Source of the DNA: a virus
Direction: 5' to 3' (one strand)
DNA: 25,229 nucleotides
IMG/VR virus record: IMGVR_UViG_3300007346_000208
Location: 1 to 25,229 of that record
Shown here: piece after piece, positions 5,049 to 9,794 of the stretch
Position numbering within the stretch: position 1 is the stretch's first letter
How the letters are laid out: each line of letters starts with the position of its first letter
Made by a program: the position numbers and the translations under genes
The notes under the pieces: generated by a model
Seen by the model: only the letters and a program-made list of their open reading frames with translations
Database searches by the model: none
What the model was told of the DNA's origin: nothing

Positions 5049-5258
5049 TTACTCCCCGCTGTCGTCGTCGTCAGCAGCCGAGTCATCATCATCGACAACA
5101 TCGTCGTCGTCGGTGACGGATGAATCATCGTCATCATCTACGGATGAGTCATCATCATCGGTCTCTGAGCTTGAACAGCCACCTAATACTACCGTGTTGG
5201 TAGCAAAAAGGCAAGCCAAAAATGTTACAAAAGTAACGATATTTACACGCTTGAACAT
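5049..5258 (-). CDS. Small Asp-rich lipoprotein with DDDD repeats
   Basis: A 69-residue protein. Residues 1-28 are a lipoprotein signal peptide: MFKR charged start, hydrophobic core VTFVTFLACLFA, and lipobox LGGC with Cys 28 as the lipidation site. The mature part is almost only Asp runs separated by Ser, Val or Ala: five blocks of 4-5 Asp, 21 Asp and 2 Glu in the last 38 residues. Such a tail could bind divalent cations or simply extend away from the membrane. ATG 5258 follows AGAAAGGAAATAGT, a leader shared with other genes here. Similar DDDD-S lipoproteins are frequent in delta-proteobacterial and myxobacterial genomes, so host origin is possible. Function is unknown. Confidence 0.75.
   Translation of the reverse strand: MFKRVNIVTFVTFLACLFATNTVVLGGCSSSETDDDDSSVDDDDDSSVTDDDDVVDDDDSAADDDDSGE
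5058..5163 (-). repeat. Trinucleotide (GAY) repeat tract encoding the poly-Asp tail
   Basis: Five clusters of GAT/GAC codons, four to five each, separated by Ser/Val/Ala codons. Both GAT and GAC are mixed, so selection at the protein level is as likely as pure slippage, but the tract could change length by replication slippage. Confidence 0.6.
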
Positions 5259-6118: not shown

Positions 6119-6895
6119 TTAAAGAGCGCCAAGCTCTGCGAAGGCGGCATCGACGGCGTTGACCTCGCTATCGTTGTTCTTGTTGCCATACTTCGTGGTC
6201 TCGCTAGAAACCGACTCTGGATCATCGACCTGCGAGTTAACAAAGTTATCAAGCATCGTCTGAACATCAGCAGTCGTCTTTCGCTCAAACAGCCCACCGA
6301 ACTCGGGGATGCTGTCAAGAAGCTCTGCGCACTTATCTGGAGTTAGATCCTCACAGAGAGCGGAGGGGCGTCGTCGCGGGACCAGCTTTGTCTGAGGGAA
6401 CGACGCTCCAGGGGGCTTACCGTAAGTAAGAGTAAGGTCAGTGCCAGACTCCGTATCGGTAATATCACCGTACTCAGGGTTGAGCACGAGAGAAAGAAGA
6501 TTCTCGTATGCGGTCTTTCCGTAACCCCAGATACGAACTCCTGCATCCTCCTGACCACGGACCATAACCGGAGAGAAGAAACGCTGACGAACGAAAAGAG
6601 ACTTTGCAGTCTTCTTAGAATGCTCGTCGTTGTTGTCTACGCCCTCACGCCATAGCTGAGAAGCAAACTCGCATACGGGGCAGTTATCGCCAAAGTTACG
6701 CTTTGGACAAAGGAAGCCGCCCTTTTCAACATTGTAGTGGAACCACATCTCCTTGAAGGGGTCGCCATCGGCAGTAGGCACGATACGAATATCCTGCTCA
6801 CCATCCTCGGGACGCCAGAAAACGGAGTCTCCACCCTTACCCTCACCTCGCAAGGCTGCGAGCTTCTCTCGCATTTTGTCTAAATTGATACCCAT
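6119..6895 (-). CDS. Single-stranded DNA binding protein (T4 gp32-like)
   Basis: Coats single-stranded DNA at the fork and works with recombinase, helicase and polymerase. The N-terminus INLDKMREKL resembles the basic cooperativity segment. Residues 25-150 form the core, with FWRPEDGEQDIRIVP as the first strands and a zinc site made of His 53, Cys 63, Cys 72 and Cys 75, spaced like the His-Cys3 site of gp32. Aromatic-rich strands follow (VRIWGYGKTAYENL). The C-terminus (about 215-258) is a flexible acidic tail ending VDAAFAELGAL, the usual partner-binding tail. ATG 6895 follows AAGAAAGGAAATAAAAA. Length (258) is close to T4 gp32 (301). Confidence 0.9.
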   Translation of the reverse strand: MGINLDKMREKLAALRGEGKGGDSVFWRPEDGEQDIRIVPTADGDPFKEMWFHYNVEKGGFLCPKRNFGDNCPVCEFASQLWREGVDNNDEHSKKTAKSLFVRQRFFSPVMVRGQEDAGVRIWGYGKTAYENLLSLVLNPEYGDITDTESGTDLTLTYGKPPGASFPQTKLVPRRRPSALCEDLTPDKCAELLDSIPEFGGLFERKTTADVQTMLDNFVNSQVDDPESVSSETTKYGNKNNDSEVNAVDAAFAELGAL

Positions 6896-6926
6896 TTTTT
6901 ATTTCCTTTCTTGGGTTAGAGTACGA

Positions 6927-7787
6927 TCAGCTAATATCCTGATCGCCTAAAAGCTTGTCAACATATTGTACCACAGAGGAATACCGAATGCAATAACAAT
7001 ATTTCTGTTCGTAACTCGTTCTAAACACACCATACGATACATTCGCTCCCGTGTCAAGCCTAGACTTAACAAAGTTGTTGATTTTTCTGAACAGAGTGCC
7101 GTCATTCTTCAGGTCATCCTCTCCAATACCATAGTAGTATACCACGTCCTTCGTGTGTGTCAAGGGGTAGAACCACTTTTCTTTATACTGTGTATAATCG
7201 TCACCCTCCAACGTCACAGCACCAATCGTGCAGATTCGTGACAATTCTGATGGGGTAATAAAGTTGCCAATTACAGGCTCTGAATGCTTAAATACGTTTG
7301 TCATATGAATAATATTTACAATCGCTTGGTTTAGAGTATCGTAATAACCGATAATAGACATATCACCAATGCTGCGTTCAATGTGCGCGTTATTGACCAT
7401 AATAATACGCTCTAATACGCCTGAACGAGCATACTCTTGTAGTACAGAAGAAACAATCTTCTCTTGCTTCTTTTGTATCTCGGACATAATCGTTAGATCG
7501 CCTTCAATGTAAAGAACTGTAACCTTATTGTTTTGAAGTTGCTCCAACAAACGCAAAGAACCACCAGAGATCTTTCCTGCGCCAGCAATAACAACCAATA
7601 CTTCTTCGTTTTGAATATCTAACTCTAAGTGGGGAAACTTTGCGTCATACTCTTCGTGAGAAGAGCATTCCTCAATCATAATGCTTGCGTCGTCGTTTGT
7701 ATCGATAGTAAAAGTTTCATACTGCGGGAACTTTGAAAAAGCCTTCGCAATATTACAACCTGCTTTTCCTAATCCAACAACAATCAT
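6927..7787 (-). CDS. Tubulin/FtsZ-like protein with degenerate GTPase signature
   Basis: With ATG at 7787 the protein has 286 residues and starts directly with the first strand and phosphate loop MIVVGLGKAGCNIAKAF, as in FtsZ. A strand ending TIDTND follows. Residues 63-77 (VLVVIAGAGKISGGS) sit where FtsZ has its GGGTGTG tubulin signature, followed by helix, strand VTVLYIEG, then LERIIMVNNAH and a helix YYDTLNQAIVNIIHMTNVF that match FtsZ order. In the T7-loop region GNFITPSELS the usual acidic catalytic residues are absent, so GTP hydrolysis may be lost or altered. ATG 7787 overlaps the preceding stop as ATGA; a GTG at 7799 is an alternative start with a poor leader. Similarity is by eye at fold level. 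A Rossmann-fold protein of another kind is the main alternative. Confidence 0.6.
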   Translation of the reverse strand: MIVVGLGKAGCNIAKAFSKFPQYETFTIDTNDDASIMIEECSSHEEYDAKFPHLELDIQNEEVLVVIAGAGKISGGSLRLLEQLQNNKVTVLYIEGDLTIMSEIQKKQEKIVSSVLQEYARSGVLERIIMVNNAHIERSIGDMSIIGYYDTLNQAIVNIIHMTNVFKHSEPVIGNFITPSELSRICTIGAVTLEGDDYTQYKEKWFYPLTHTKDVVYYYGIGEDDLKNDGTLFRKINNFVKSRLDTGANVSYGVFRTSYEQKYCYCIRYSSVVQYVDKLLGDQDIS

Positions 7788-7930
7788 TCCTTTACCCACT
7801 CCAACAAATAACCCATGTCAAAGCCACCACACTCAATACGCTTAACAGTGACAGCCGTCATAACCTGAGCATCCGTGATACCTTCTCTATTGAGATCCCG
7901 CGCACGCTTCGGCGTGATGATGTCACTCAT
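7784..7930 (-). pseudogene. Chimeric small frame whose 3' part is the C-terminus of a MazG-like pyrophosphohydrolase
   Basis: A 48-codon frame, ATG at 7930. The first dozen codons (MSDIITPKRARDL) are GC-rich like the block upstream. The rest is phage-like in composition and reads KRIECGGFDMGYLLEWV, which matches the C-terminal KR-x-x-R-GGF-x-x-G-x-LLE pattern of MazG-like (phosphoribosyl-ATP-pyrophosphohydrolase-like) proteins. The N-terminus of such a protein lies at 8494-8610, on the far side of the GC-rich block. The middle of the domain, with the metal-binding helices, is absent. It ends in an ATGA overlap with the tubulin-like gene, which it may still couple. Whether the 48-residue peptide does anything is unknown. 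Confidence 0.5.
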
Positions 7931-8267
7931 CGCCCACCCCCTTCGCAGCCTGCAGCGCGGCGACGAGGGCGTGAGCTTCGGTGTGGTCAGATTGCGCGGA
8001 CGTGCCCACAGCTCGCCAGCCATGCACGCCGCCCTCAGTCAGCAGGGGCTGGCAGGTCAGCCAGTCGCAGCCCCAAGCCTCGCGAACCTGCGCGAGCAGC
8101 ACGCCCAGGGTCGCCGGGTCGCGGAAGTCGGGCCACTTGCTGACAACCCACGCTCCGTCGCCGTCCTCGTAACGCTCTCGCGTCCGACCATCGACAGCCC
8201 CTCCCGCCCACTCAAACCCCGCCGCCAACGCCCGCAGGCCCAGTTCCTTCGCAGTCTCGTCGTCCAT
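7923..8267 (-). CDS. Hypothetical protein of the GC-rich block (114 aa)
   Basis: I do not recognise a named family. The start is ATG 8267 (MDDETAKELGLRAL), overlapping the previous stop as TGATG. The sequence has WVVSKWPDFRDPATLGVLLAQVREAWG and ends with HALVAALQAAKG, a style seen in small accessory proteins of phages from GC-rich hosts. No membrane segment or signal peptide. Its GC content is far above that of neighbouring phage genes. The frame stays open upstream of 8267, but that stretch lies inside the 76-residue gene. Confidence 0.6.
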   Translation of the reverse strand: MDDETAKELGLRALAAGFEWAGGAVDGRTRERYEDGDGAWVVSKWPDFRDPATLGVLLAQVREAWGCDWLTCQPLLTEGGVHGWRAVGTSAQSDHTEAHALVAALQAAKGVGDE

Positions 8268-8497
8268 CACTCGCTCCAATCCCGCAGCCCGATCAGCCGC
8301 GCCGCAGTAACCACCGCGTCTAGCTCGTGGTGCGACAGGGACAGGGCGACCGCACGCCCGGCCTTCTGCGGCGCCAGGACCACATCGACCCCCTCGCCGT
8401 TCTCCCACTCCGTCACGGTAACGGCGGTCTGCTCGCCGTACTCGGACACGTCGATGCGGATGGCGCGGGGTCGGTAGTACATCGGCGCGTCACTCAT
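8267..8497 (-). CDS. Hypothetical protein of the GC-rich block (76 aa)
   Basis: ATG 8497 follows GGGAGG by 5 bases. The protein has a beta-rich first half (AIRIDVSEYGEQTAVTVTEW) and a helical end with LSHHELDAVVTAARLIG; short proteins with an HELD-type helix are frequent in phages of GC-rich hosts, function unknown. It overlaps the next gene by TGATG, which supports it as a real translated gene brought in with the block. Confidence 0.6.
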   Translation of the reverse strand: MSDAPMYYRPRAIRIDVSEYGEQTAVTVTEWENGEGVDVVLAPQKAGRAVALSLSHHELDAVVTAARLIGLRDWSE

Positions 8498-8546
8498 CGT
8501 CGCCTCCCGGATCCGGCAGCAGGGCCCAGCGGTCGCCGTGCCATTT
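8490..8546 (-). pseudogene. C-terminal remnant of a donor gene at the edge of the GC-rich block
   Basis: In a frame different from the MazG-like fragment, the first bases of the block encode KWHGDRWALLPDPGGDDE and then stop at 8490-8492, overlapping the next start by ATGAGTGA. This looks like the normal end of a gene that sat upstream in the donor. Its 5' part is cut off at about 8546, which places the recombination point between 8544 and 8551. Confidence 0.45.
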
Positions 8547-8610
8547 TGCCGGCTTCTTCGATGATCTCTGGAATTCGATCTCGGACAAGCTTATGATATA
8601 TTTTTTTCAT
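8494..8610 (-). pseudogene. N-terminal fragment of a MazG-like nucleoside triphosphate pyrophosphohydrolase
   Basis: ATG 8610 overlaps the polymerase stop as ATGA. The first 22 residues, starting MKKIYHKLVRDRIPEIIEEAGK, match the conserved KLVRDRIPEII start of MazG-like (phosphoribosyl-ATP-pyrophosphohydrolase-like) proteins. After Lys 22 the sequence turns into an Arg/Pro/Gly-rich tail encoded by GC-rich DNA and stops at 38 codons. The metal-binding EExxE helices are gone, so the fragment cannot be active. The matching C-terminus is at 7784-7890. In intact phages this enzyme hydrolyses (d)NTPs or alarmones. Confidence 0.6.
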
Positions 8611-9794
8611 AATTTTAATCCCTTCATTTCTCCAAGGTTTCTGCCTGCCGAGACATTGACCTTGAAGTTACCATAGCGGGTTTTCTTAAACGTGTCAAGC
8701 ATTTTTATAACTGCCTGTCGTTCGTCGTTTGCGAGATCGATGTATACTGCGTCGTGAATAAGGAACGCGACATTGCTTTTCATCCCCTCCAAAAGCTTAA
8801 AAACCTTGTATGCCTGTTCATGCACCATATCAATCGTGGTGCTCTGTACAATGTAGTTGAGAGCGTGATGCTCGTCTACATTATCCATTATTCTACCATA
8901 ATCCGTCTTGATTTTGAAGCCATCCCAGAACTTATTTCGAACAAAATCCTTGTTGTAAAGCTGCTGTAACTGCTTGTTTTCATTGGAAGAATACAACCAA
9001 GCAAAGGTCTTTGTCTTTGCGTCTTCACGGGTCAATTGATTGTTGAAAACGTTCTGAACATTCCAATCGTGGATGTCATTTTGAGGCTGATCTTGCTCTG
9101 ACAGCGCCAGGAGCACTCTCAACTCTGCTGCATTGAAATCAAGCTCCAAAAGCCAATCATTGTTCGGTCTAATGCACCCTCGAAACTCCTTACCCATCGT
9201 CAAAATCGGAAAAGACTTAGGTTTTGTTGAAAGTCGACCAGTTACCGTCCCCCACGCATTATAATCACACACCCAACGCGACGTGCGAAGAGTGCGATGA
9301 AAGTTCTTGCCCTTTACAGAAGACAAAAGATGCTTGATAGGCTCAATATCGATGTTTAGGTCCCTTGACTCAATGTCCGAGAGCATCTGAACCAGATTCA
9401 TCATATGCTGATAATTCTCAGGACGATCAAAAGTCTCCAAAACGTGCTTTGTGACCTCATTTTTCGCATTCATGTAGCGATACAAGAAATACTCGGGCAA
9501 CACGTCATAAAAGCAGTTATCGTCCAAAGAAAGGTCAGCGGTTTTGAAGGCTTTCAGACACGATCTAAGCGTCTTTTTGATTTCCTCCCAGTCAGCCTTC
9601 ATATGCTCCGGACAAACGTCTGTAATCGTCGCTCCGTTGGCGTAGATGCGTGCTACTTCGTAGTTACCCTCACCCATATGACTAGAATATTCCCAAGTGC
9701 CACCTTCTGATGGAAGATCCGTCGTAGAGTTTATCTGATTATCAGCGAAATAGCCAACACAATCGCGCTTGGCGTCAAGAACTTGAAAAAGCAA
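8607..9794 (-). CDS. Family A DNA polymerase, polymerase domain only
   Basis: Replicative polymerase of the Pol I family (395 residues). Motif A is LLELDFNAAELRVLLALS with Asp 219 and Glu 224. The O-helix has Arg 256, Lys 260 and Phe 264 with the same 3-residue spacings as E. coli Pol I. Motif C is FLIHDAVYID with His 347 and Asp 348, where the usual following Glu is Ala. A WGTVTGRLST segment precedes motif A. There is no 3'-5' exonuclease DEDD motif and no 5' nuclease domain, so proofreading must come from elsewhere or be absent. The first 170 residues are unassigned. Start is TTG 9794, 4 bases after GGAGGT; the upstream TAG in the same frame leaves no earlier start. Confidence 0.9.
   Translation of the reverse strand: MLFQVLDAKRDCVGYFADNQINSTTDLPSEGGTWEYSSHMGEGNYEVARIYANGATITDVCPEHMKADWEEIKKTLRSCLKAFKTADLSLDDNCFYDVLPEYFLYRYMNAKNEVTKHVLETFDRPENYQHMMNLVQMLSDIESRDLNIDIEPIKHLLSSVKGKNFHRTLRTSRWVCDYNAWGTVTGRLSTKPKSFPILTMGKEFRGCIRPNNDWLLELDFNAAELRVLLALSEQDQPQNDIHDWNVQNVFNNQLTREDAKTKTFAWLYSSNENKQLQQLYNKDFVRNKFWDGFKIKTDYGRIMDNVDEHHALNYIVQSTTIDMVHEQAYKVFKLLEGMKSNVAFLIHDAVYIDLANDERQAVIKMLDTFKKTRYGNFKVNVSAGRNLGEMKGLKL

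Follow-up and report, generated by a model that had tools for sequence, protein, structure and literature searches.

The tubulin superfamily and its phage members are already known, and phage tubulins are dynamic GTPase filaments that position DNA. The face opposite the nucleotide is the side on which tubulins make their longitudinal (head-to-tail) contacts, and helix H8 together with loop T7 forms half of the longitudinal interface of FtsZ. The superfamily carries the signature GGGTG(S/T)G in loop T4 (PMC2875224). Strongly diverged members have been described as FtsZl1 and FtsZl2 (Makarova and Koonin 2010, PMC2875224), the first of which has no recognisable T6-H7 elements and was proposed to assemble atypically. 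Both retain GGGTG(S/T)G and are cellular, whereas the phage family described here, which we call FtsZL and which appears to be another strongly diverged member, has lost the signature and keeps S6-H7 and the C-terminal domain. In the open-access literature we found no core, syntenic, signature-less tubulin-fold family in T4-like phages other than jumbo phages.

The window analysed here is an entire IMG/VR record of 25,229 bases, in which FtsZL is encoded as follows:

6927 to 7787, minus strand: FtsZL gene, predicted tubulin/FtsZ-fold protein of 286 aa (open reading frame, family, AlphaFold2, Foldseek, dN/dS)

FtsZL is a real conserved gene. Its ATG lies at 7787 (GTG at 7799 would be an alternative but less likely start) and its stop codon at 6929-6927, and the dN/dS of 0.05–0.09 against close relatives, where estimable, indicates strong purifying selection. 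A first scan of IMG/VR retrieved 86 loci with homologues and a profile scan at least 232; residue conservation was counted over 91 distinct family proteins. The carriers are uncultured T4-like phages, mostly marine-derived, and the gene is present in one copy in each of eight long records (76–194 kb). Photosystem genes, which might have given a clue to the host, were found in none of the eight long relatives. INPHARED phages, considered as a bridge to FtsZ, yielded no homologue even at an E limit of 1, GTDB genome contigs yielded no relatives, and none of the Pfam, PHROGs or NCBIfam profiles recognises FtsZL above any cut-off.

An AlphaFold2 model built from a 49-sequence alignment headed by the window protein reached a pLDDT of 89.1 and a pTM of 0.89, and a second model headed by a 49%-identical family member reached 86.8 and 0.87. 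The predicted structure is a two-domain tubulin fold comprising a Rossmann-like GTPase domain, the core helix H7 and a C-terminal domain, and the elements follow the order S1-H1-S2, S4-H4-S5-H5-S6-H6, H7, S7 and S8-H10-S9-S10, in keeping with the FtsZ-like order that the first-pass annotation had read by eye. When either model was searched against the PDB with Foldseek, the top 50 chains were all FtsZ, TubZ or CetZ (50/50 each), with best E-values of 1.7e-12 for the window-protein model and 1.2e-12 for the second, TM-scores by query of 0.58–0.73, identities of 9–16% and alignments of roughly 310–360 columns that cover both domains. The first-pass annotation had called for structure prediction and named two outcomes that would speak against its reading, absence of the tubulin fold and better matches to another Rossmann-like family; the fold was obtained in both models, and the top 50 matches all belong to the tubulin superfamily.

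At the sequence level the likeness to FtsZ appears weak yet genuine. Against a ten-FtsZ profile, the family members reach a median of 2.0 bits (n=91 distinct), shuffles −2.3 and other ORFs from the same phages −2.7, and 48% of the members exceed the shuffles’ 99th percentile. TIGR00065 (ftsZ) matches two relatives with E-values of 0.0017–0.0018 over residues 126–165, the guanine-contact segment, at 17.7 bits and so below its cut-off of 295, while PF00091 reaches E 0.011 in two of 49 members and passes no curated cut-off. In profile–profile comparison, hhalign aligns FtsZL colinearly with FtsZ at P 0.03–0.06, which is non-significant alone, and aligns only the T1 segment with PhuZ, a trivial result. 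The predicted structures nevertheless support assigning FtsZL to the tubulin/FtsZ superfamily as a divergent member. We also considered a Rossmann enzyme or sensor without tubulin kinship that binds NAD(P) or another nucleotide, since the Pfam family TrkA_N (Rossmann) matches 38 of 49 members with a best E of 1.5e-5. The match in the window protein spans residues 2–39, that is, the first strand–helix, and stays under the curated cut-off, and the Foldseek ranking over both domains and two models likewise speaks against an NAD-binding protein. This explanation is largely refuted, and we give it very little credence.

The nucleotide-binding region combines retained and lost elements, located as follows:

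7752 to 7775, minus strand: T1-like phosphate loop GLGKAGCN (residues 5–12), with G5, L6, G7 and G10 in 91/91 proteins

7557 to 7583, minus strand: putative T4-equivalent loop GAGKISGGS (residues 69–77), FtsZ counterpart GMGGGTGTG

7389 to 7391, minus strand: N133 at the end of strand S6, in 89/91 proteins, putative equivalent of the FtsZ/tubulin guanine-contact Asn

7329 to 7346, minus strand: Y148-N153 (YYDTLN) at the start of core helix H7, putative equivalent of the FtsZ Phe...Asp guanine contact

7233 to 7298, minus strand: T7-equivalent stretch (residues 164–185)

Both segments singled out by the first-pass annotation, GLGKAGCN and IAGAGKISGGS, are present (residues 5–12 and 67–77), and the alterations it claimed for the GGGTGTG signature and the T7 acids extend to the family. 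The loop that we place opposite T4, by element order and alignment with FtsZ, keeps G69 and G75 in 91/91 proteins, G71 in 89/91 and S/T74 in 90/91, and two signature glycines are substituted: GAGxISGG replaces GxGGGTGTG in FtsZL, and GGGTG(S/T)G is missing from the 91 family proteins, which have GAGx(I/V)(S/T)G instead. Residues 166–189 contain no invariant D or E among the 91 distinct proteins, and the pattern NxDxxD/E was not found there; D209 and D212 are invariant in the compared FtsZ set. Helices H8 and H9 are absent from both AlphaFold2 models, the T3 loop region is shortened and differs from that of FtsZ, and neither a C-terminal H11-like helix nor the FtsZ C-terminal conserved peptide was found, the conserved tail being an RNA element (see below). 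N133, Y148 (kept in 90/91) and N153 (91/91) would occupy the guanine-contact positions, judging from element order and a faint alignment.

Set against FtsZ from Staphylococcus aureus (3vo8) and Aquifex aeolicus (2r6r), FtsZL shares the fold of both domains (TM 0.6–0.73), the T1 loop and, putatively, by alignment, the Asn and aromatic...Asn/Asp guanine contacts, but identity is only 10–14%, and GGGTGTG, T3, the T7 acids, H8, H9 and the C-terminal linker and peptide are all missing. The T7 and T4 catalytic motifs that define FtsZ proper are absent, and the context is a phage replication operon and not the host dcw context. From the retained and lost elements FtsZL is predicted to bind nucleotide without canonical hydrolysis. 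As it lacks H8 and T7, it may be unable to form the usual type of filament.

Among viral proteins, the best BFVD match is A0A6J5RW92 of an uncultured Caudovirales phage, annotated as an FtsZ cell division GTPase (TM 0.76 by query length), which differs from FtsZL in sequence (17% identity) and in length (452 vs 286 aa). TubZ (2xka, 4ei7) shares the fold and appears in the Foldseek lists, and both TubZ and PhuZ (phiKZ gp39) are, like FtsZL, phage- or plasmid-encoded; in contrast to FtsZL, more of their signature loop is preserved, they possess C-terminal H11 regions, and their filaments are known. If FtsZL formed dynamic filaments, with non-standard residues carrying out hydrolysis, and these centred or segregated the phage DNA, this would suit the predicted fold and match the function of the only well-studied phage tubulins, and PhuZ itself deviates from the canonical motif, with GGASGS in phiKZ. 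We nevertheless consider such positioning improbable, because FtsZL has no equivalent T7 acids, T3, H8 or H11-like helix and its phage appears to be neither jumbo nor plasmid-like; long relatives lie on contigs of 76–194 kb. The companions of a TubZRC system were not found either: iterated repeats (tubC) are missing within 6700–8700 and in one relative (L007), and the gene upstream of FtsZL encodes, by eye, a helical EExxE...EExAD protein and not a winged-helix TubR.

The earlier view that phage tubulins come from jumbo and plasmid-like phages only, and not from this gene neighbourhood, calls for a qualification as to the former: BFVD contains proteins of uncultured phages annotated as FtsZ, and IMG/VR about 75 contigs with canonical FtsZ, none of them in this gene neighbourhood. 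These contigs (L197–L271) encode proteins with GGGTGTG and NxDFAD and represent either true phage FtsZs or host contamination; they were rejected as a bridge to FtsZL, being canonical FtsZs in other contexts. A further contig of 4.6 kb (L273) carries an FtsZ fragment beside tail-sheath and tail-tube genes that resemble those of the window.

The immediate neighbours of FtsZL in the window are the following:

6119 to 6895, minus strand: gp32-like SSB, next gene downstream (phrog_1192, E 8e-24)

7784 to 7895, minus strand: upstream-gene remnant, whose stop codon overlaps the FtsZL ATG

8607 to 9794, minus strand: family-A DNA polymerase, next conserved gene upstream (phrog_17, E 1e-19)

In the direction of transcription, a T4-like tail/baseplate block leads into the polymerase, a small ORF, FtsZL and the gp32-like SSB, after which come two unassigned ORFs, a small ORF rich in Asp, and the genes for UvsX, a 5′ nuclease and a DnaB helicase, so that the original placement of FtsZL inside a replication block is borne out. 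The one-strand order of polymerase, small ORF, FtsZL, SSB, UvsX, nuclease and helicase is kept at nearly every retrieved locus. An SSB-based scan gave 80 loci, and FtsZL was present in 70 of the 70 that had at least 900 bases upstream, a figure that describes this clade alone because the set consists of the best-scoring SSBs (at least 73% identity to the query). The same operon occurs in the more distant Microcystis phage Mel-JY01, Flavobacterium phage immuto and a 484-kb uncultured phage, where unrelated proteins occupy the FtsZL slot, and FtsZL therefore looks like an acquisition of this clade.

The position of FtsZL shows co-regulation, not physical partnership. A rival reading takes FtsZL for a loader or an SSB–recombinase mediator, working as a monomer or dimer and with the tubulin fold incidental. 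Its place directly upstream of the gp32-like SSB is that of gene 59 relative to gene 32 in phage T4, whose intercistronic 59-32 region is arranged alike (PMC535899); as the idea draws on position and not on likeness to gp59 or UvsY in sequence or fold, we hold it to be rather unlikely.

Several other features of the window and its relatives were observed. About 650 bp at 7896–8543 have 70% GC amid a 40% GC neighbourhood and take the place of some 140 bp in the small gene that precedes FtsZL; the segment occurs in L002 and partly in L003 and L004, is absent from L007 and others, and is a recent insertion. The upstream gene is intact in relatives (e.g. L007, 5618–5986) and encodes a small helical protein, MazG/HisE-like by eye, with a sub-cut-off match to PF04447 (dATP/dGTP pyrophosphohydrolase, E 0.006). 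On the minus strand at 5049–5258 lies a 69-aa ORF, lipoprotein-like in appearance, whose product starts with hydrophobic residues, contains a Cys and ends in a long stretch rich in Asp. Two of the eight long relatives (L347 and L348, the genomes of L062 and L080) encode short adenylosuccinate synthetases of 330–338 aa, which we take to be the size of the phage PurZ of 2-aminoadenine genomes; an ORF resembling, by eye, the DNA polymerase III alpha chain adjoins each. These synthetases keep the Asp of YGD(E/C)GKGK, which makes a PurZ function uncertain.

Conservation outside the nucleotide pocket offers a clue to what FtsZL may do. Entropy is 0.44 bits in the loop KFPQY (17–24), 0.82 in QEYARSG (117–127) and 0.88 in the T7 region, all below the protein mean of 1.04 bits and thus more conserved, and in the tubulin fold these three segments would lie opposite the nucleotide side. 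Because conserved loops outside the pocket would then fall on the head-to-tail face of tubulins, we propose that FtsZL uses that face either to assemble, as a small oligomer or a static filament, or to dock a single replication protein. On this proposal, a diverged tubulin/FtsZ member would have become a core part of the replication module in an uncultured T4-like clade; it would use the residues kept in T1, S6/H6 and H7 to hold a guanine nucleotide, which it would not hydrolyse in the way FtsZ does. The filled or empty state of the site would then serve as a switch, structural or sensing, and the assembly or docking would organise or anchor the phage replication machinery. To this main reading, in which FtsZL binds but does not hydrolyse nucleotide and serves the replication machinery as a tubulin-fold scaffold, we assign a rough probability of 0.45.

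The same two faces could be read in another way. As an FtsZ antagonist by mimicry, FtsZL would cap or co-assemble with host FtsZ filaments through its nucleotide-bearing top face and, having no working T7/H8 bottom face, would block division and thereby keep the infected cell large. A filament cap would be expected to look like this, its top face kept and its bottom face broken, and small phage proteins such as Kil and T7 Gp0.4 commonly block FtsZ (PMC13423816). Known inhibitors, however, are accessory, small and fast-evolving, whereas FtsZL is core, syntenic and slowly evolving in the replication operon at every testable locus; moreover, its bottom-face loops are among its most conserved parts, which argues that this face is not decaying. 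The fixed place in the replication operon favours a replication scaffold over an accessory FtsZ inhibitor, and we judge a replication role for the putative scaffold to be likelier than the mimic, which we regard as unlikely. A bolder version of the scaffold reading, namely that a signature-less tubulin-fold protein has become a fixed and indispensable part of the replisome or replication centre in an abundant uncultured phage clade, we advance more tentatively, and with the same reserve we suggest that such a role, if true, is undescribed for the tubulin superfamily.

Part of the conservation of the gene has a different origin, in nucleic-acid signals that overlap its 3′ third:

7136 to 7163, minus strand: sigma-70-like promoter TTGACA-16-TATACT (11/12, TG before the −10), FtsZL codons 209–218

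6965 to 6993, minus strand: weaker promoter-like site TTGCAT-17-TACAAT, FtsZL codons 264–274

6920 to 6948, minus strand: SSB mRNA leader hairpin, overlapping the FtsZL stop codon

6890 to 6916, minus strand: predicted pairing of leader ACCC (6916-6913) with SSB-start GGGU (6893-6890), with covariation

Synonymous diversity is near expectation over codons 1–200 (0.84–0.98) and drops to 0.36–0.47 at codons 201–220 and to 0.1–0.36 at codons 261–286. The stronger promoter-like site falls in the first dip, the weaker one and the hairpin in the second. The stronger site is conserved at the codon level family-wide, and the synonymous sites of the weaker one are conserved as well, as assessed for both across the 91 proteins; the two probably drive SSB from within FtsZL. 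The hairpin has an 8-bp stem, an 8-nt loop GAUAUURG and two further pairs past a bulge. Across 53 leaders, 99.8% of alignment cells are paired and five of the eight pairs show changes on both sides, a covariation that none of 500 shuffles equalled; no Rfam family matches the hairpin. The ACCC/GGGU helix covaries to AGCC/GGCU in four of 70 distinct leaders, those with ATGGCT. A repeat of GATCAGGATATT within the SSB codons was set aside as chance or protein coding, as synonymous sites show unconstrained variation in the SSB copy.

In two relatives (L057 and L068), SSB lies about 1–1.5 kb farther downstream, and there the hairpin precedes SSB and not the FtsZL end, with a TTGACA/TATAAT promoter-like site ahead of the relocated hairpin and SSB. 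The C-terminal tail DQDI(S/G) was accordingly rejected as a protein-interaction motif: its codons are nucleotide-identical and form the covarying hairpin, a TAG stop falls inside it in some relatives, and the hairpin moves with SSB. The apparent conservation of the tail is thus that of the embedded RNA hairpin, and owing to the overlapping signals neither the tail nor part of the VVYYYG/YCYC conservation can be read as protein function. In phage T4, gp32 represses its own translation via a leader pseudoknot that overlaps the upstream reading frame (PMC535899), and the SSB leader described here (6890–6948), with a similar layout, is a candidate SSB autoregulatory element. The promoter-like sites and the SSB-leader hairpin constitute a separate, testable regulatory finding, and they carry the warning that nucleic-acid signals account for part of the conservation of the FtsZL protein.

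For the superfamily, FtsZL would show that structure prediction can find members missed by sequence searches. A core family that keeps the tubulin fold without the hydrolysis signature, in a replication operon, would widen the known uses of the fold, and the present evidence suggests that these phages have co-opted a tubulin-like cytoskeletal fold for the replication of their DNA.
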